From Solibacteraceae bacterium (GTDB taxonomy: Bacteria > Acidobacteriota > Terriglobia > Bryobacterales > Bryobacteraceae): a stretch of 64,000 nucleotides of DNA. The notes beneath the pieces were generated by a model. That model was given only the letters and a program-made list of their open reading frames with translations, was not told the origin of the DNA and searched no databases. The DNA is taken from positions 186,001 to 250,000 of the forward strand of contig JALSRK010000024.1 in NCBI GenBank assembly GCA_026984795.1. The letters run 5' to 3'. Made by a program: the position numbers and the translations under genes. Below, piece after piece: positions 11,949 to 22,024 of this stretch (position 1 is its first letter; each line of letters begins with the position of its first letter).

Positions 11949-12560
11949 GTGCTGCCTTCAGGAAACGGAGCGGCGCATCGGAATCCGCCTCAAGCCAGAC
12001 AACCGAGTCGCCGCATAGCTGTGAAGGGAAACAACCGAGTTGCCCGCAGCCAAGGTGTCAGGCGAGTGCCGAGGTATATCTCTAGTCGTACTTACACAGT
12101 CAGCCCGCCACGAGCGGGCAGGACTTCGAGTATCGCCCGCCTGGCAGCACGGCTGCGCGAGTCGATCCGAAGACTGGAGAACGCGACCACCTTGATCACT
12201 GAAAGGGAACAGGCCCTGGAACAAGCCCTGCGAAGGGTCGAAACGCTGTTGGCGGGAGCGCCGCAGTTAGCGCCCGCTCCCGCCGAGGCCCCCGTTTCCA
12301 AGCGGAAGCTGCTGCTTTCTCCCCGGCTCCTGCAAGTGTACAATGTCGTTAAGAAACACAGGGTTATGACTCCGGGCCAGCTCTCGCGGTTGATGAACCT
12401 GAGGCCCAACACCTGCTCGGAGTATTTGAAGGAGCTCGTGTTTCGGGGGCATCTCCAGCAAGTGGCCCACGGAATGTACGCCATCGCGGAGTACTCGGAG
12501 GGCATGCCGGAGATGAAAACGAATCGGTCTGCCGGCAATAAGCCCATGAAAGCCCGGTAG
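11949..12560 (+). CDS. small protein with coiled coil and C-terminal winged-helix domain
   Basis: 203 residues. The first 55 are basic and disordered. Residues about 60-103 form a likely coiled coil (heptad-rich, LRESIRRLENATTLITE). After a Pro/Ala linker, residues 122-180 read as a winged helix-turn-helix: LLSPRLLQVYNVVKK, then TPGQLSRLMNLRPNTCSEYLKELVFRG as the recognition helices, and HLQQVAHGMYAI as the wing. It is probably a DNA-binding regulator that dimerises through the coiled coil. The GTG start at 11949 is uncertain; an internal GTG near residue 25 is possible. It lies divergent from the hybrid kinase, so it may belong to the same regulatory unit, but it lacks a receiver domain. Confidence 0.6.
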   Translation: MLPSGNGAAHRNPPQARQPSRRIAVKGNNRVARSQGVRRVPRYISSRTYTVSPPRAGRTSSIARLAARLRESIRRLENATTLITEREQALEQALRRVETLLAGAPQLAPAPAEAPVSKRKLLLSPRLLQVYNVVKKHRVMTPGQLSRLMNLRPNTCSEYLKELVFRGHLQQVAHGMYAIAEYSEGMPEMKTNRSAGNKPMKAR

Positions 12561-12997
12561 CGAGGTCCGTCAGCGCCCCACCGGCCCCGGTCATCGCCCC
12601 CAGCGTACAAGGCGGCGGGCGTGACCGGAGAGATCAGCGACTATCGTAGACTGTCGTAACAGGTCTACGACAATCTGCCTAATTCAGCTCTCGTTCTTCG
12701 GGTCGATCTAAAGAATATCCCTGCCGCCCCCGATTACACGCACGCGAACACTCCAACGATAACCGGCACAGGAGACACGTCCGGGCGGGGACTGCGGCGG
12801 CAGAATGGTTTCTCCTGAGGGGCCAGGCCGCATTCCCCGTTCGCCGTGGCCGTCCGGTGGTGGAGTTTCGCGTTCGAGACCCGCTTGGGCAAGTGAGCGG
12901 ATCCTGGCAGCCTCTCCGGAGGTTCCCTTGGGGTGGTGGGGGCCGCGTTCGAACTCTAGCGGTTCCTCGAAGGTGGGTCGCGGGCGGGAGGACAGAG
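12561..12997. other. intergenic region, no gene seen
   Basis: 437 nt between the winged-helix gene and a small membrane-protein gene. The only structure noted is the hairpin at 12645-12669. Open frames on both strands lack plausible starts and composition. Cloverleaf pairing was looked for around the GTTCGAA at 12948-12954 and not found. Confidence 0.45.
12645..12669. repeat. imperfect 25-bp inverted repeat
   Basis: CGTAGACTGT and its complement ACAGGTCTACG (one bulged base) are separated by a 4-nt loop. No T-tract follows, so an intrinsic terminator is unlikely. An operator, perhaps for the adjacent winged-helix protein, is possible. Confidence 0.45.
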
Positions 12998-13510
12998 ATG
13001 CAAGCACTGACTGACGACAAAATACGACTCGCCGGGGCGATCATTGGGTACCTGCTCGCCTCGAGCGCTTCGTTCGCCCTCCTGTGGCGTGGGTCGAACT
13101 GGAGGTTCCGTTTTCTGGCGGCCATTGTGGGAATGTTGCCTCTTTATAAGGCGGTCACGCTGGCAGCCAAATACAGCAGCGTCGTTGTTCCCGTCACCGG
13201 GTGGCTGAACCAGATGGTCGAAGCCATCGTCGCCACCCTGTTCCTGCTCACCGTGCTGTTGCTTGACCTCGAGATCCGCAACCGGAAGACTCTCGAGACC
13301 CGCCTCAGGTTGGCGGAAGCCGAGGGCGGCTGGCCTCAACTTGCCAAACTGGATCCCCGCAAAAGACGGCGGAACCGGGCACCTGCAAACGCCCGCGCCG
13401 AAGTGCGGGCGCAGCACCGAACGGCGGCGCCGGGCCAGCAGGCTGGTGGCCCCGCGGCAAGGCCTTCGAACGAAACGGGATGCTCGTCCGGCGTCTCCGC
13501 AGGTCATTGA
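12998..13510 (+). CDS. small inner-membrane protein, three predicted helices
   Basis: 170 residues from the ATG at 12998, which follows a GGAGGACAGAG ribosome-binding region; the longer open frame upstream has poor composition. Hydrophobic segments lie at about 10-31, 38-58 and 75-92, followed by a charged cytoplasmic tail that begins helical (EIRNRKTLETRLRLAEAE) and then becomes Ala/Pro/Gln-rich. No family was recognised. The juxtamembrane coiled-coil-like helix suggests oligomerisation or a partner. It follows the winged-helix gene on the same strand after a 437-nt gap, so co-transcription is uncertain. The gene model is likely; function is unknown. Confidence 0.6.
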   Translation: MQALTDDKIRLAGAIIGYLLASSASFALLWRGSNWRFRFLAAIVGMLPLYKAVTLAAKYSSVVVPVTGWLNQMVEAIVATLFLLTVLLLDLEIRNRKTLETRLRLAEAEGGWPQLAKLDPRKRRRNRAPANARAEVRAQHRTAAPGQQAGGPAARPSNETGCSSGVSAGH

Positions 13511-13667
13511 GGCGGCGGTCTGGACTGGCCACCCGGCCGGCGTCGGATCCGGGCGAAGGCCGGCGCTTCTCTCGGGCGCCAGGCCGCGGCCGGGGCGCAG
13601 GACTCAGTCCCTCCCTCGCCCACAGTCGCGGCCCGATGAATGGAATGGCGCCGGAGCCCCGCCGCTG

Positions 13668-14228
13668 CTACTCCTCGTCCACGCGCCCGTCGCGGTACAC
13701 GATCTTCGGCCGCAGGCGTTCCACGTCCATCGTTACCCCGTCGTTCAGTCCGACGGGGGCGCGGTTGACCGCCGTGTAGACCACCGCCGCGTCGAGCCGG
13801 AGCGGCGAGGCGATCGTCAGGAAGCCATCGACCTTGTCCGGAACATCGGCGTTGCCGCCGAGCATCTCCTGGATCACGCGGCAGCCCAGAAAGACGGCCT
13901 GGCCGGGGGCGAGCCGCTTCTCGATCCTCCCCGACGCTCCGGGCTCCGGGTTGGCGATGTGATGCGCTTCGATGGCCCGGACGAGGATCTTCACCGGACG
14001 GGCGTGAAGGTTGTGCAGATTGACGACCGTGCGGTAGACCGCCGGAACGAACGCCCGGGCCGCGTCGGTGGCCGGCACGCCGGCGTCCTTGCAGACGAAT
14101 TTGGCAGAATAAACGAAGGTCCGGGCGCTGTCACCAGCTGACTCTTGCGCCGGCATCGCCACGATCGTCGCGAGAGCGAGCAGCAGCACTCGGACCCCGG
14201 TTCCCTTCCACCTGCATGTCGTTTCCAT
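13668..14228 (-). CDS. secreted protein of unknown function
   Basis: 186 residues. The start at 14228 was chosen because AGGAGAG lies at the right distance upstream; the open frame continues 13 codons further. A signal peptide (VRVLLLALATIVAMPAQ) is followed by a mature domain that looks all-beta: FVYSAKFVCKDAG, a strand with YRTVVNLHNLHARPVKILV, and VDGFLTIASPLRLDAAVVYTA. The pattern of short strands with NLHN resembles a small immunoglobulin-like or adhesion domain, but no family was recognised. The two cysteines could form a disulfide in the periplasm. It lies alone between a plus-strand membrane-protein gene and the M1-like gene. Confidence 0.65.
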   Translation of the reverse strand: METTCRWKGTGVRVLLLALATIVAMPAQESAGDSARTFVYSAKFVCKDAGVPATDAARAFVPAVYRTVVNLHNLHARPVKILVRAIEAHHIANPEPGASGRIEKRLAPGQAVFLGCRVIQEMLGGNADVPDKVDGFLTIASPLRLDAAVVYTAVNRAPVGLNDGVTMDVERLRPKIVYRDGRVDEE

Positions 14229-14396
14229 CGTTCTCTCTCCTGAAAAGCGGATTTCGCACGGCCACACCCATCCCGTGGGCGGCGGCGGGAAGAGAGACTC
14301 GTGATGGCCGCTTGGAGGATGGGCGCGGGCCGTACATAGGACAAAACCCGCCGCCCCAGGAAAAGTTGCAGGGAAAAACCGGAAATAACCGGTGGT

Positions 14397-16394
14397 TCAG
14401 ATGTGTTCGGCCGGCCGCTCGTAAGGCTTTTGCAGGTACTTCGCGGCTTCCTCGAGAGCGCCCTGGGTGTTGTCTTTGGTGCGCAGCGCCCGCTGGTACT
14501 CGTTCACCGCGCGTTCTCTCTGCCCGGTGATGTCGAAGATCTTGCCCAGATTGATGTGCGACCAGACGACCGTCCACTTCGGCTCCTGGTCGCCGTTGAT
14601 CGCTTCGCGGAACTCGTTGGCCGCCGCCTGATAGTTGCGCTGGAGGAAGAAGACCTCGGCCACCCGGTAGTGAGCCAGCGAGCTGTAACGGTTGACGTCG
14701 AGCGCTTTCTGGTACTCCCGCAGCGCGTCGCTGAACTCGCTGATCTCGGCGAACTGCTCGCCTCTCCGGATGGCCACTGCGACGCGCATCTTGTCGTCGT
14801 AGCGCAGCACGTCGCCGTCCGGATCGATGATGATGTTCTTCGGCTTGCCGAAGGTGTCGATGACGAACTCCGTCGACGGGCCCACCACTTCGATGACCTT
14901 CTCTTCCGGATTGCCTTCGGTCTCGATCCGCAGCTTCACCGGCATCCGGAACGTGTCCATGTCCTGCATGATCCGGCCGATGATCCGGAAGCCCTTCTGC
15001 GTACGGTACACGGTGTACTCGATGTCGAACTCGGGCGCCCCGCTCGATTCAATCCACTGGATGAAGAACCCCTTCAGGTTCTGCTGCGAGACCGCCTCGG
15101 CGACCTTGCGGAAATCGTCGGTGTAGAAACTCTTCCAGGCGTATTGCTCGAGGAAGCGTTTCAGAATGGCGTTGAACTTCTCATCGCCGGTCACCTGGCG
15201 CAGCATGTGGAGCACCGCCGCCCCTTTGCCCGCCGTGGCCGCCCAGAACTCCGGCGAGTAGTCCTCGATCCGCGCCGCCTGGATCAGCGGCACGTTGTCC
15301 ACGGTGAGCGCTTCGACGTAGTCGTCGTGTACGAGTGCCCGCGCCGCCGCCGGGCCTTCGGTCTCCTCAACCCATAGCAACTCGGAATAGCGGGCGGCGC
15401 CGTTGGTGAGCCACAGATGGTTCCGCGTCGCCGGCGACGTGAGCACGCCCCACCATTGCCGGGAGATCTGGTTGACCAGGAGCCGGGTGTTCACCTCTTC
15501 GCCGATCGCCCCCGGCGAGAGGAACAGCAGGCCCGGAGCCGCGTATCCGTTCGGCGCCGTATCGCTGGTTTCGATCACCGTGAGATTGCTTTCCGGGGGC
15601 AGGCCGTAGCGGTCGGTCAGGAAAGTCATGATCCGGCCGATCTCCTGGCCATAGGGCCCGGCCATGGGGGCCGCATCCTCACGGAGATAGAAAGAGGTGC
15701 GCACCCCTTCGCTCTCCACCACTTGGGGCTCCCCCCGCACCACTGCGATCGAGCCCGGGAAGGATTCCTGCGTATACTCCAGCGTGTAAGTGGTCCGCCC
15801 GTCGCTGCCCGTCTCGGTCAGAGTGATTCCGCTGCCGACGACCGTGTAGCCTTCGGGCACCGTGATTTTCAGGGTCGCCTGGTAACGGTCTGTCGTGTAG
15901 CCGCTCACCGGGAACCACCGCGCCGGGTAGAGCAGGTAAGCATAGTCCTGGTTGATCACGGCGAAATCGATGCCCCACACCGGCGATTCATCCGGTCCCG
16001 TGAAGTGGCCGCCATAGGTGAACGTCAGGGTCTCGGTATCGGCCTTGAGGCGGCGGCGCCCGAAATTCACCCGGACGCTGAAGTCATCGTAGGAGCGGGA
16101 GAATTGGAGTTCCTCGCCGTTACTGTCGGCGACGCTGTCTACCTCCAGATCGTTGTGGAGCTCGAAGGAGACAGAGCGGATACCGTCGTCCACGACGGCG
16201 AACGTGACGGCGGCTTTGGCGGTCAGTTCCTCGCTCGAGGGATGGATCTCGGCTTCGATGAGGTAGCGCTGGACGTCGATCGGGGGAAGTTCACTCTGGG
16301 CTACAGCGCGCCCGGTCGTCCCCCAAACCACCAGGGCTGCTGCGAGGAGGACCGGAGCAATCGAATGGGGTAGTACAGCCGCTCGCCTGCGCAT
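14397..16394 (-). CDS. M1-aminopeptidase-like protein with destroyed zinc site, plus TPRs
   Basis: 665 residues with a signal peptide (ending near AVAQ). Residues 40-225 match the N-terminal beta saddle of M1 peptidases and 230-430 the thermolysin-like helical domain. The zinc motif HExxHx18E is lost: the two His, the general-base Glu and the distal Glu are N308, Q309, R312 and N331 (LVNQISRQWWG, then LWLTNGAARY). The flanking WWG and the C-terminal helices are kept, so the fold should be intact but without metallopeptidase activity. Residues about 545-655 are TPR repeats. It starts 5 nt after the lpxB stop and is probably translated from the speA-lpxB unit, or from a TATAGG box overlapping that stop. 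It likely serves as a periplasmic binding scaffold. Confidence 0.82.
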   Translation of the reverse strand: MRRRAAVLPHSIAPVLLAAALVVWGTTGRAVAQSELPPIDVQRYLIEAEIHPSSEELTAKAAVTFAVVDDGIRSVSFELHNDLEVDSVADSNGEELQFSRSYDDFSVRVNFGRRRLKADTETLTFTYGGHFTGPDESPVWGIDFAVINQDYAYLLYPARWFPVSGYTTDRYQATLKITVPEGYTVVGSGITLTETGSDGRTTYTLEYTQESFPGSIAVVRGEPQVVESEGVRTSFYLREDAAPMAGPYGQEIGRIMTFLTDRYGLPPESNLTVIETSDTAPNGYAAPGLLFLSPGAIGEEVNTRLLVNQISRQWWGVLTSPATRNHLWLTNGAARYSELLWVEETEGPAAARALVHDDYVEALTVDNVPLIQAARIEDYSPEFWAATAGKGAAVLHMLRQVTGDEKFNAILKRFLEQYAWKSFYTDDFRKVAEAVSQQNLKGFFIQWIESSGAPEFDIEYTVYRTQKGFRIIGRIMQDMDTFRMPVKLRIETEGNPEEKVIEVVGPSTEFVIDTFGKPKNIIIDPDGDVLRYDDKMRVAVAIRRGEQFAEISEFSDALREYQKALDVNRYSSLAHYRVAEVFFLQRNYQAAANEFREAINGDQEPKWTVVWSHINLGKIFDITGQRERAVNEYQRALRTKDNTQGALEEAAKYLQKPYERPAEHI

Positions 16395-16399
16395 ATTGC

Positions 16400-17527
16400 C
16401 TATAACAGATCTTCTACCAACTTCGCCGCCGTTTCCATCGGATCTGCGTCTGAAAATAGCTTCGCTCGCACCGCCTCCAGGTTCCGTTTCATCGCTTCGC
16501 GGGCTGGCGGATCCTCCAGCAGCCGCTGAACTTCACCAGCGAGGGACTCTGGTGTGCACCGCTCTTGTACCAGCTCAGCCGCCACGGGCTCTCCGGCGAT
16601 CAGATTCACCATCGAATAATAGGGAACCCGGACCAGCAAGCGGCCCAGCCGCCACGTCAGGGGTGAGACGCGATAGAAGGTCACCATCGGCGTCCTGAGC
16701 AGCGCCGCCTCCACCGTCACCGTACCGCAGGCGGCCAGCGCCAGGTCGGCGTGCGCGATCGCGTCCCAGGTTTCGCCCTCAATAACTTGGATGGCCAAAC
16801 GGGAAATCGGTTCCCAGAAATTGCCCCCCCAGCGCTCGAGCGCACCCGGCGGGGCGGCGAGCAGGAACGAAGTCGGCCGGCGCTGGAGGATCTGTTCGGC
16901 GGCTCCCGCCACCACCGGAAGATGGCGGGCTACTTCGTCCCGGCGGCTGCCCGGCAACAGGACGACAAGCGGGCGATCCTCCGGAATTCCGTGCCGGCGG
17001 CGGAACTCCTCCCGCGGGGTGTGGGCGGCGATCAGCCCCGACAGTGGATGGCCGATGTAGACGGCGTCTACGCCCCGTTCGCGGAAGAAGCGCTCTTCGA
17101 ACGGGAAGATGCAGAGCAACTTCTTGACGTCGCGCCGGAGCCGCCGCAGCCGCCAGCGCCTCCAGGCCCAGACCTGCGGCGCCACCAGTTGCACGACAGG
17201 GATGCCTTCGCGGTGCAGTGCCCGCGCCACGCGGAGGTGGAAGCCCGGGTTGTCGGTGAGGATGGCGAGACGGGGCCGCTCCCGGCGGGCGGCGGCGATC
17301 AGTTTCCGGTACTCGCGGTGGATTCGCGGGATGTGGCGAAGAATTTCGACGAGGCCGACGACGGCAAGCGATGAGGCGTCCACCACGCGCCGCACCCCAG
17401 CTTCGGCCATCCGCGGACCGGCGCAGCCGAACAGCTCGATCTTCGGGCGGCGCGCCCGCAGCCGCTTCGCCAGCTCGGCGGCGTAGAGATCCCCCGACGC
17501 CTCGCCCGCCGAGATCAGGATCTTCAT
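16400..17527 (-). CDS. lpxB: lipid-A-disaccharide synthase
   Basis: 375 residues, the normal length for LpxB. It joins UDP-2,3-diacylglucosamine and 2,3-diacylglucosamine-1-phosphate at the inner face of the cytoplasmic membrane, a step of lipid A synthesis. The family N-terminus MKILISAGEASGDLYAAEL fixes the start at 17527 although the frame is open further upstream. Further signatures are ILTDNPGFHLRVA, VAPQVWAWRRWR, FPFEERFF, IGHPL, LLPGSRRDEV and AACGTVTVEAAL. It is a GT-B (GT19) enzyme. It lies 58 nt after speA and 5 nt before the M1-like gene. Its presence implies an outer membrane with lipid A, in line with the TonB receptors. Confidence 0.96.
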   Translation of the reverse strand: MKILISAGEASGDLYAAELAKRLRARRPKIELFGCAGPRMAEAGVRRVVDASSLAVVGLVEILRHIPRIHREYRKLIAAARRERPRLAILTDNPGFHLRVARALHREGIPVVQLVAPQVWAWRRWRLRRLRRDVKKLLCIFPFEERFFRERGVDAVYIGHPLSGLIAAHTPREEFRRRHGIPEDRPLVVLLPGSRRDEVARHLPVVAGAAEQILQRRPTSFLLAAPPGALERWGGNFWEPISRLAIQVIEGETWDAIAHADLALAACGTVTVEAALLRTPMVTFYRVSPLTWRLGRLLVRVPYYSMVNLIAGEPVAAELVQERCTPESLAGEVQRLLEDPPAREAMKRNLEAVRAKLFSDADPMETAAKLVEDLL

Positions 17528-17585
17528 GCTCGCCGCCGGGCCTCGCCGGCGAAGCCGGGAACCGACATCCGCGGCCGGAGAGGCT

Positions 17586-19532
<1,947 letters not shown>

Positions 19533-19638
19533 CAGAACACCCTCCCGAAAACTTCAGTTTCCTGCACTAGGGCGAATTCGGCAACCATCAAGAAGATACG
19601 GCGGTCCGGCGGGACAGTGGAAGGCGGGCGCCGGCTCG

Positions 19639-20346
19639 TCAACCGCGTGGCCGGATGAGGCGGCGCGCCTGGTTGAAGACGGCCGCCAGCATGGGCTCGG
19701 TGAGCCGGCCGGTCTGGGTGTTCTGCTGGGACGGGTGGTAGGAGGAGATCAGCGCCGGGGCGCCCTCGACGGCGGGCTGGAGGCGATTGTGGGCGAACTG
19801 GAAGGCCGCCCGGCTGCGGATCCGCCCCTGGTCGCGCAGGATCGAGAGGTAGACGTCGAAGGCCAGGCGGCCGAGGGCGACGACGACGCGCAGCCGGCGC
19901 AGCAACTCGAGTTCCCGCTCGAGGAAAGGGCGGCAGTTGGCGATCTCCTCGCGGGAGGGCTTGTTGGCCGGCGGGGCGCAGCGCACGGCGGCGGTGATGT
20001 AGCAGTCGCGCAGCTCGAGGCCGTCGTCGCGGGAGACGGCTTGCGGCTGGGAGGCGAAGCCGGCCCGATGCAGGACGCGGTAGAGGAAGTCTCCGGAGCG
20101 GTCGCCGGTGAACATGCGGCCGGTGCGGTTGGCCCCGTGGGCGGCCGGGGCGAGGCCGATGAGCAGGAGCCGGGCGCCGGGATCGCCGAAAGAGGGCACC
20201 GGGCGGGCCCAGTAGTCCCAGTCGCGGTAGGCCCGGCGCTTCTTGCGCGCCACCTCCTCGCAATAGGAGCGCAGCCGAGGGCACCGGGTGCAGGCGACGA
20301 CTTCGCGTTGAAGGGCTTCGATCTTCCGCATCGGCGTCTGTGCCAT
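19639..20346 (-). CDS. uracil-DNA glycosylase, family 5 (UDGb) type
   Basis: 235 residues. It removes uracil (and probably other deaminated bases) from DNA. Motif A reads GLAPAAHGANRTGRMFTGDRSG, the family 5 form that lacks the polar Asp/Asn of families 1 and 4; motif B lies near ISSYHPSQQNTQTG. Cysteines in ACTRCPRLRSYC and in AAVRCAPP fit the four ligands of the [4Fe-4S] cluster. Two starts are possible: ATG 20346, or ATG 20331, which a TACAAT box at 20345-20350 would precede by 13 nt. It lies 29 nt after rlmN on the same strand, so it is probably co-transcribed. Confidence 0.9.
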   Translation of the reverse strand: MAQTPMRKIEALQREVVACTRCPRLRSYCEEVARKKRRAYRDWDYWARPVPSFGDPGARLLLIGLAPAAHGANRTGRMFTGDRSGDFLYRVLHRAGFASQPQAVSRDDGLELRDCYITAAVRCAPPANKPSREEIANCRPFLERELELLRRLRVVVALGRLAFDVYLSILRDQGRIRSRAAFQFAHNRLQPAVEGAPALISSYHPSQQNTQTGRLTEPMLAAVFNQARRLIRPRG

Positions 20347-20375
20347 TGTACCGGCGCGCCGGCCGGAGCGCCGCT

Positions 20376-21419
20376 TCACGGACGGACGAGCTCGCCGGCG
20401 GAGGCGCGTTTGAGCTGTCCGCAGGCGGCGAAGATGTCGCGTCCCCGCGGCTTGCGGATGAACGTCGGGAAGCTGCGCCGGAGGATGGCCTGAAAGGCTT
20501 CGACCCGCTCCGGTTCCGGGGTTTCGAAGGGCAGCCCAGGGCCGGGATTCCAGGCGATCAGGTTCACCTTGCAGTTCAGGCGCGACAGCAGGCGGACGAC
20601 GCGGCGGGCGTCCTCGGGCGAATCGTTCACCCCTTTGAGGAGCACGTACTCGAAGGTGAGCTTTTCCCAGGGCCGCAGCGGGTAGCGGCGGCAGGCCTCG
20701 ATGAGTTCCTCGAGCGGGTACTTCCGCGCCAGGGGCATCAGCTCGGAGCGCTGCTCCCGGGTGGAGCCGTTCAGCGAGACCGCCAGCTTCGGGCGCACGG
20801 GCGCCTGGCCCAGCTCCCGGATCTTGGGGACGATGCCGACAGTGGAGAGGGTCATGCGGCGTTCCGGGACGCCGACGGCCCGGGGGTCGGCGAGGATGCG
20901 GACGGCTTTCAGCACCTCGGGCAGGTTGAGCAGCGGCTCGCCCTGGCCCATGAGCACGATATTGAGGCGGCGGGAGTGCGGATCGAGCCCGTTGTCCCGG
21001 GCCAGCTCCAGCACCTGGCCGAGGATCTCGCCGGCGGTGAGGTTCCGCTCGAGGCCCATGAGCCCGGTGAGGCAGAACCTGCACCCAGCGGGACAGCCGA
21101 TCTGGGTGGAGATGCAGAGCGTGTCGCGGCTTTCTTCGGGCATGAAGACCGCCTCGACGCTGCCCCCCTGCCCGGTCTCCAGCAAGTAGCGGCGCGTGCC
21201 GTCGGCCGATTCGTAGCGTTCGAGGATGTGGGGAAGCCCGAGAGACGTCTCTTCGGCCAGTTTCCGGCGGAGGGCGGCGGGCAGGTCGGTGGCCTCGGCC
21301 AGGTCGCGGATGCGCCGGCGGTAGAGGGCCTCGTAGAGCTGGCGCGCGCGGTAGGGGGGCTCAGCAGGGCCGAGCAGCCCCCTCACATCTTCGAGATCGA
21401 GGCCGATCAAAGCTCGCAT
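20376..21419 (-). CDS. rlmN: dual-specificity 23S rRNA/tRNA (adenine-C2) methyltransferase
   Basis: 347 residues. A radical-SAM methylase that modifies A2503 of 23S rRNA and A37 of some tRNAs. The [4Fe-4S] cysteines are C109, C113 and C116 (CPAGCRFC). The SAM-binding GQGEPLLN and the C-terminal FAACGQL with the catalytic mixed-disulfide Cys are present; the partner Cys should be the one near NPGPG. The start at 21419 ([12 protein letters not shown]) fits the family; the frame is open upstream into poor sequence. TAAGAT ends 11 nt before the ATG. The gene is followed by the uracil-DNA glycosylase gene. Confidence 0.95.
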
Positions 21420-21430
21420 CGTCTGATTCG

Positions 21431-21436
21431 ATCTTA
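21431..21436 (-). promoter_or_regulatory. -10 element of a probable short-leader transcript (rlmN)
   Basis: On the minus strand TAAGAT ends 11 nt before the rlmN ATG. No Shine-Dalgarno sequence lies between them. Confidence 0.4.
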
Positions 21437-21906
21437 GCCGACCCGGCACGGCGACGGCCGGCGCCGCTGGAAGCAGTATGTTTTCCACAGGATAATTAAC
21501 ACATATTAAGAAGGATAAGTGCGAATTGGGTTCGTTCGGCACGGACCCTTTCCGGGAGGGCGGGTTCCACGGGACCGTCGCCGGGCGCGGCGGGAAGGGC
21601 TCCTGGTCGATCGTTGGGTCGGCCGGGTGGAAGCGAAAGGGGCGGCGCTTCCACAAAGCGCGGCGGCGGGAGAGGACGGCGCGGCAGGTCCTCGCATCCT
21701 GTTGCTATCCCAAGAGCTGGAGTGGCCCGGGGGTGATCCCCCGGCCGGGAGAAGGGGGCCGCAAAGACGTCGGGGCCAAGCACACAGACGGCTGGCAGGA
21801 TGCCCGAAGCCGGCTGGGGGCTCCAGGTTTTGAGGCCCGGAGGGACCGGCGTCCGCGGGAGGCGGAGGCCGTGGCTTTCCGGGTCTTGGGGCGCTCTCGA
21901 AACCCG
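21437..21906. other. intergenic region with strong potential RNA structure
   Basis: About 470 nt with no convincing gene. It holds a strong hairpin at 21724-21746 (GGCC, bulged C, GGGGG, loop TGAT, CCCCC, GGCC). Next comes a segment containing CCGCAAAGAC, then a second hairpin near 21789-21812 (CGGCT, GGC, loop, GCC, AGCCG). The segment around 21705-21746 (CTATCC, AAGAG, TGGAG, GGCCC, TGAT, CCCGGC) loosely resembles the start of a SAM-I aptamer. Conserved downstream elements were not found, so no riboswitch is called. Confidence 0.35.
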
Positions 21907-21935
21907 TTGAGGCGGCTACCTCGTTCTGCTATAGT
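21907..21935 (+). promoter_or_regulatory. sigma-70-type promoter of the phoH-ybeY-corC-era unit
   Basis: TTGAGG and TATAGT are separated by exactly 17 nt. Transcription would begin near 21942, giving a leader of about 80 nt before phoH. Confidence 0.7.
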
Positions 21936-22024
21936 CAAAGTGGATGTTGACAAGGATTCCGCGGAAGCGGATGTACGCCTTCCACCCAATCCGCCCTTCT
22001 GGAGGTAGCGCCGTTCCCTAACTG

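Follow-up and report, generated by a model that had tools for sequence, protein, structure and literature searches.

In the long M1 enzymes, another helical domain takes the C-terminal position. TAF2 is an inactive M1 homologue of eukaryotes, and both TAF2 and yeast Tma108 are eukaryotic, intracellular proteins not known to have a TPR tail or a link with lpxB. Tma108 is listed as an inactive M1 homologue in a review (PMC11266112), the accessible part of which names no bacterial case. According to the accessible parts of two papers on E. coli, BepA (YfgC) combines an M48 domain with a TPR domain that contacts LptD and Bam, and a weakened chaperone-like activity remains in its protease-dead variant E137Q (PMC8423444, PMC7950410). 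YejM/PbgA is described, in the available portion of its source, as a membrane-anchored protein whose arylsulfatase-like periplasmic domain senses LPS (PMC7773988). Among open-licence papers, no M1-TPR protein of Acidobacteria and no bacterial M1 pseudopeptidase was found; in the available main text of a Granulicella omics paper (PMC7074687), LptD is named, and no mention of the protein considered here was found.

The protein in question is encoded in a stretch of 64,000 nucleotides of a Solibacteraceae bacterium (assembly GCA_026984795.1, contig JALSRK010000024.1, positions 186,001 to 250,000), referred to below as the window. A sequence-only reading of this stretch had described an M1 peptidase with all zinc ligands replaced, joined to TPRs and located directly behind lpxB.

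Results

Gene, Protein and Predicted Fold

The ORF at 14397–16394 on the reverse strand runs uninterrupted over 665 codons from its ATG to its stop, and its product gave a Pfam Peptidase_M1 match (PF01433, E = 3.4e-15) at residues 306–447, with TPR_2 above its cut-off on the C-terminal side, so that the full-length frame with a TPR tail was confirmed. The features of the gene are as follows:

14397..16394, reverse strand: M1-fold pseudopeptidase with TPR tail, 665 aa, complete CDS (ORF, Pfam, AlphaFold2, VIA-align)
16299..16394, reverse strand: putative signal peptide, residues 1–32, cut likely after AVA (simple rules; cut site by sequence reading)
15402..15473, reverse strand: former HExxH-x18-E stretch, residues 308–331 (N308, Q309, R312, N331; sequence comparison)
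14427..14774, reverse strand: TPR domain, residues about 541–656, the most conserved part of the protein (Pfam and orthologue conservation)

The AlphaFold2 model, built from an alignment of 96 rows, had a mean pLDDT of 93.7 and a pTM of 0.91, and residues 1–30 were its only longer stretch with pLDDT below 50. In VIA-align, the model was superimposed on leukotriene A4 hydrolase (LTA4H, 5ni2; Z 36.9, rmsd 3.3, 413 residues) and on the M1 metallopeptidase of D. radiodurans (6a8z; Z 36.2). The prediction is thus of an intact M1 fold whose cleft has lost M1 chemistry.

Distribution of Orthologues

A match was accepted as an orthologue when its summed tblastn bits were at least 220 and it reached residue 560; after rows identical over the last 500 residues had been dropped, 190 orthologue rows were left. 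Genome searches were confined to Acidobacteriota. When the window protein was searched against the window's family, 199 of 200 genomes gave a match, and 196 were orthologue-grade (by hand count at a best E of 1.3e-58 or lower, as for the two counts that follow); the remaining four comprised G122, without any match, and G048, G053 and G101, with weak matches only. The class sample, which includes many of the family genomes, gave matches in 289 of 299 genomes, 288 of them orthologue-grade. The phylum sample gave matches in 215 of 297 genomes, many of which were ordinary M1 proteins, and about 96 genomes were orthologue-grade; G465, with a split match (E = 2.1e-45), is outside the 96.

Fifteen family and class genomes had no orthologue-grade match. 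Nine of these also had no LpxB match, three (G387, G048, G101) held only a cut LpxB, and in G255 the start of an orthologue was present at a contig end; gaps in the assemblies at this locus could thus account for 13 of the 15 absences. In G338 and G322 (99% and 100% complete, respectively), lpxB was present and no sign of an orthologue was detected in the lpxB contig. G338 (L299) is a small genome of 2.4 Mb, and both it and G322 (L301) would be useful for asking what stands in for the pseudopeptidase.

A pattern scan of GTDB contigs, in which NQISRQWW was one of six patterns and rows with that motif were therefore favoured, yielded 71 loci, all acidobacterial by title except one probably mislabelled record; the rows from genome searches are free of this bias. 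The record named Nevskia soli (L091) carries an acidobacterial pair of lpxB and pseudopeptidase with 58–59% identity to the window and is likely to be a metagenome bin with a wrong label.

State of the Active Site

The four positions of HExxH-x18-E read N308, Q309, R312 and N331 in the window protein, and the flanking QWWG was retained; the ORF, the Pfam match and the alignment agree with the changes first reported from the letters, including the conservation of WWG and of the fold. Two further losses had escaped that reading: at what we take to be the YxKG and GAMEN motifs of M1 enzymes, the catalytic tyrosine position is occupied by A388 and the exopeptidase position reads GYAAPG. Two other M1 proteins of the same genome (L002, L003) have HExxH..E and the tyrosine.

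The complete H-E-H-E-Y set was found in none of the 189 readable orthologues (190 non-redundant rows, of which L062 is a fragment unreadable at the motif). In the 95 readable rows of the closest 96, N308 was present in 92, Q309 in 85, R312 in 92 and N331 in 93. The commonest residues at positions 308, 309, 312 and 331 in f10 were N, T, H and N (29, 25, 29 and 23 of 31, respectively), the 10 rows of f6 had mixed residues at these positions, and R308 (25 rows) and Y312 (16 rows) were leading among the 30 most distant rows. In these alignments, the window's family alone has N/Q/R/N almost fixed, and other families have replaced the same positions differently. Conservation of the set in other acidobacteria, named as a check by the sequence-only reading, holds within the family and fails beyond it, where the residues differ. 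The idea that N/Q/R/N forms a new catalytic or binding site shared by the whole orthologue group was rejected, as the set is lineage-specific. Since L002 and L003 keep their motifs and N/Q/R/N is kept in related genomes, the altered active site is more than chance.

The zinc ligands H308, H312 and E331 were present, and the tyrosine was absent, in three of the 190 orthologues, namely, L164 and L233 (f9) and L151 (f11); L159 has D in place of E at position 331. These three proteins are possible natural intermediates between enzyme and pseudoenzyme. It should be noted that the sequence-only reading had named intact HExxH in close relatives, together with random changes at other conserved sites, as the mark of a decaying gene; the only orthologues with intact zinc ligands belong to other families of the class, and other positions of the fold are conserved, so this mark of decay is absent here.

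Conservation and Selection

Alignment A1 comprised the window protein and 95 of 113 prepared rows, and alignment A2 comprised the window protein and 46 of 78, near-copies and some other rows being omitted. Over the 96 aligned orthologues, columns 308, 309, 312, 331 and 388 ranked 386, 448, 455, 372 and 599 of 634 in conservation, respectively, which places them with the more variable columns; QWW and KG, beside the former catalytic columns, were among the most conserved (ranks 27–57), with Q313, W314, K390 and G391 at ranks 34, 27, 28 and 56. In the 24 rows of that alignment from the window's family, N308 was invariant, and Q309, R312 and N331 ranked 185, 207 and 155 of 634, so within the family the new residues are kept, though not exceptionally. 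Mean conservation over the 96 orthologues was 0.46 in the N-terminal domain, 0.48 in residues 236–340 and 0.66 in the TPR domain, where W607 was found in 188 of 188 rows, R626 in 187 of 187, D621, R628 and Y633 each in 186 of 187, and G617 in 183 of 187. In these alignments, the TPR tail, rather than the pocket, is the most constrained part.

The dN/dS ratio over 2929 pairs with dS below 1.2 had a median of 0.46 and values up to 1.19; distant pairs dominate this set, and it was set aside because synonymous sites were saturated, the calculation being rerun on pairs with at least 85% identity. The median over the 45 such pairs was 0.047 (0.048 for residues 236–470 and 0.022 for the TPR domain); the highest value belonged to the pair L055/L095 (0.228, strongest in the TPR part). 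A gene decaying toward loss would be expected to look as this one does at its catalytic residues, all of which are lost, but the presence of orthologues throughout most of the family and class samples, the low dN/dS and the near-invariant TPR residues speak against it. Decay was rejected on distribution and purifying selection, in line with the first reading, and its probability is considered negligible. The protein is thus a pseudopeptidase whose fold is kept, whose catalytic residues are lost and which is under purifying selection, and this conclusion is well supported.

Alternatively, the old cleft could retain enzymatic activity by means of another metal site or of a mechanism that needs no metal; the intact zinc ligands of the three orthologues and the strong purifying selection on residues 236–470 would fit such activity. 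However, all five catalytic columns vary across orthologues, the tyrosine is missing even in the three zinc-competent proteins, and the same genome already has two M1 proteins with full motifs, which makes persisting catalysis very improbable.

Phylogenetic Analysis

A tree of 112 of 213 rows (quick LG+G4, SH-aLRT only, 31 open forks, with a long-branch warning) separated 90 orthologues from 22 other proteins by one branch (SH-aLRT 97). The boundary of this clade is soft, since L213, assigned to the comparison group of 22 proteins by the score cut-off, has a degenerate site (RSYQF) together with a TPR tail. Inside the orthologue group, loss-only counting with an intact ancestor assumed requires at least eight losses of the zinc site, and plain parsimony on the same tree gave four changes of that site. 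Two Acidobacteriota proteins outside the orthologue clade, L212 (f40) and L214 (f49), had matches to the M1 domain and to TPRs, were alignable over most of their length and had intact zinc ligands (HEHE); the tyrosine is also present in L214, which may resemble the ancestral enzyme. The existence of such TPR-tailed M1-like proteins with intact ligands outside the group suggests that the fusion preceded the loss. A single phylum holds a natural series from enzyme to pseudoenzyme: TPR-tailed relatives whose motifs are complete or almost complete, orthologues that are zinc-competent and have no tyrosine, and diverse end states.

Export

Simple rules, rather than a trained predictor, identified a hydrophobic signal core in all 185 orthologues with a usable N-terminus, an A-x-A-like cut site behind the core in 149 of these and a lipobox-like Cys in one. 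In the window protein, no 19-residue segment past residue 40 reached a hydropathy of 1.0, and no second hydrophobic stretch or membrane anchor was found there. These simple rules suggest that the product should be a soluble exported (periplasmic) protein. The periplasmic binding or scaffold protein proposed from the letters is therefore borne out as regards export by these rules, and its binding or scaffold function is conjectural.

Linkage with lpxB and the Locus

The features on the two sides of the gene are as follows:

16400..17527, reverse strand: lpxB (lipid A disaccharide synthase), directly upstream of the pseudopeptidase; PF02684, E = 1.3e-90 in the window's own genome (G000); start codon inferred from MKILISAGEASGDLY
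14378..14393, reverse strand: terminator-like hairpin with T run just past the stop codon (consensus match only)

The stop of lpxB lies at 16400 and the start of the pseudopeptidase gene at 16394, with 5 nt between them, exactly the spacing initially reported, and the link with lpxB proved real. Of 177 testable non-redundant orthologue loci, 151, from 23 family codes, had lpxB as the gene immediately upstream in the same orientation (testable loci had at least 900 nt of upstream DNA; 13 further loci were too short). In seven of the 177 loci, lpxB shared the strand but its distance was unusual, and in 19 it was not found. Fifteen of these 19 loci constitute every testable locus of f4, f23, f30, f34, f45, f73, f82, f83 and f90, and the other four (L130, L156, L182, L191) belong to f1 and f10, families otherwise having the pair. 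Over the 158 same-strand loci, the codon of residue 36 lay at a median of 81 nt from the lpxB stop, about the length of one signal peptide, which means that the two genes abut or overlap in most pairs. The gene before lpxB varies, being speA in the window and in a few relatives and read elsewhere as mnmA or an ABC transporter (by reading, not by family search). A wider conserved operon was rejected, since lpxB is the only one of the clustered neighbouring genes to occupy a constant position in most loci.

LpxB was detected in 272 of the 297 phylum genomes, whereas the orthologue-grade pseudopeptidase was detected in about 96, of which two (G573, G620) gave no LpxB match. The pseudopeptidase nearly implies LpxB, and LpxB does not imply the pseudopeptidase; strict co-occurrence was rejected, as many LpxB genomes are without the pseudopeptidase. 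LptD is encoded in the same genome.

A terminator scan of 6.5 kb found two candidates versus 3.7 expected from shuffles, so the hairpin listed above is within chance, and no RNA family reached the gathering threshold in 12000–22000. Downstream, at 13668–14267 on the reverse strand, the window encodes a small exported-looking protein with no Pfam match, for which tblastn (E 1e-8) in the relatives' loci gave a match in the window's own genome only.

Two alternatives bear on the meaning of this linkage. The pseudopeptidase could have an envelope role outside LPS, for example, in protein secretion or with peptidoglycan, and its place behind lpxB could be no more than a relic of an old operon. The nine family codes that keep the gene away from lpxB in every testable locus, the two class members with lpxB and without the pseudopeptidase (G338, G322) and the majority of LpxB-bearing phylum genomes that lack the pseudopeptidase would agree with such a role; however, 23 family codes retain the pair even though lpxB has varying neighbours on its other side, and a role of this kind is considered unlikely. 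The protein could instead be a periplasmic lipid A/LPS sensor that reports lipid A supply in the manner of YejM/PbgA. The adjacency of lpxB, the almost fixed pocket residues of the window's family, another form of which is largely fixed in f10, and the precedent of an enzyme-like domain sensing LPS in the part of the source available (PMC7773988) are in keeping with this. Nevertheless, the protein has no anchor apart from its signal peptide and would depend on a partner to transmit the signal, and the pocket varies across families, although a common lipid A ligand predicts its conservation; a sensor is thus quite improbable.

Discussion

On balance, and somewhat more likely than not, the protein is an exported M1-derived pseudopeptidase with the TPR tail as its working surface, probably a catalysis-free scaffold or chaperone in LPS or outer-membrane assembly. 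It would combine a complete M1 fold devoid of the residues of M1 chemistry with a TPR domain as the main functional surface, and it is probably co-transcribed with lpxB. The TPR tail, perhaps together with the old substrate cleft, would hold a client or partner of LPS or outer-membrane assembly, a putative example being a Lpt or Bam component. We infer that the protein lacks zinc, acts as a scaffold or chaperone and is linked with LPS export. With the fold retained, no common chemistry left in the cleft and the strongest constraint on the tail, the simplest account would be a scaffold or chaperone whose TPRs bind a conserved partner, and the adjacency of lpxB together with export points to a role in LPS or outer-membrane assembly. 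The difference between the phylum-wide numbers of LpxB and of the orthologue indicates that the pseudopeptidase is dispensable for LPS, which counts against this scaffold or chaperone reading. So do the two near-complete class genomes with lpxB and no orthologue (G338, G322), the 19 loci in which lpxB was not found and the two orthologue-bearing genomes that gave no LpxB match.

A more specific form of it can be put forward only tentatively: the protein may be a factor dedicated to lipid A/LPS biogenesis in Acidobacteriota that works without catalysis, is made with LpxB and lost its zinc site repeatedly because its function had moved to a TPR tail binding one invariant partner. If this is true, it would be a phylum-wide component of outer-membrane assembly for which the E. 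coli model has no described counterpart. Lipid A/LPS assembly is known mainly from Proteobacteria, and a protein that adjoins lpxB across much of a phylum dominant in soil, and that has given up its active site and kept its binding surface fixed, is a candidate envelope component unnamed in the literature found.

Comparison with Known Systems

The window protein has the M1 fold (PF01433) in common with LTA4H, aminopeptidase N and the Deinococcus M1 metallopeptidase. Unlike the active M1 peptidases, it is devoid of HExxH-x18-E, GAMEN and the catalytic Tyr, and its TPR tail sits where the long M1 enzymes have their other helical domain. In Tma108 and TAF2, the M1 fold serves binding instead of catalysis, as is proposed for the window protein.

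The likeness to BepA consists in a peptidase fold that is exported (here by simple rules) and followed by C-terminal TPRs. BepA is linked with LPS and outer-membrane assembly, and the window protein would have the same role. However, BepA has an M48 domain with an intact zinc site, whereas the window protein belongs to M1: no M48 model matched it up to E 10, and only PF01433 and TPR_2 were above their cut-offs. By analogy of architecture and of probable role, the window protein probably works like BepA without being a BepA. Its own genome gave eight M48 matches, and the TPR model was absent from the three read at full length (L306, L307, L309). A comparison of the TPR domain alone with the PDB returned generic TPRs, MamA and designed TPRs first, and the absence of BepA from this list is no evidence. 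Another exported-looking protein of the same genome (L313:1493–3658, reverse strand, G000:C57) matches Pfam only in its TPR repeats; at the C-terminus, its TPR tail is similar to that of the window protein (29% over residues 568–664), and a gene reading like a TonB-dependent receptor adjoins it.

With YejM/PbgA, the window protein would share an enzyme-like periplasmic domain in LPS control, but it has no membrane anchor, and its domain is M1 by Pfam and fold, not arylsulfatase-like. Inactive M1 homologues are already known in eukaryotes, and what is new here is one that is bacterial, putatively exported, TPR-tailed, lpxB-linked and phylum-wide.
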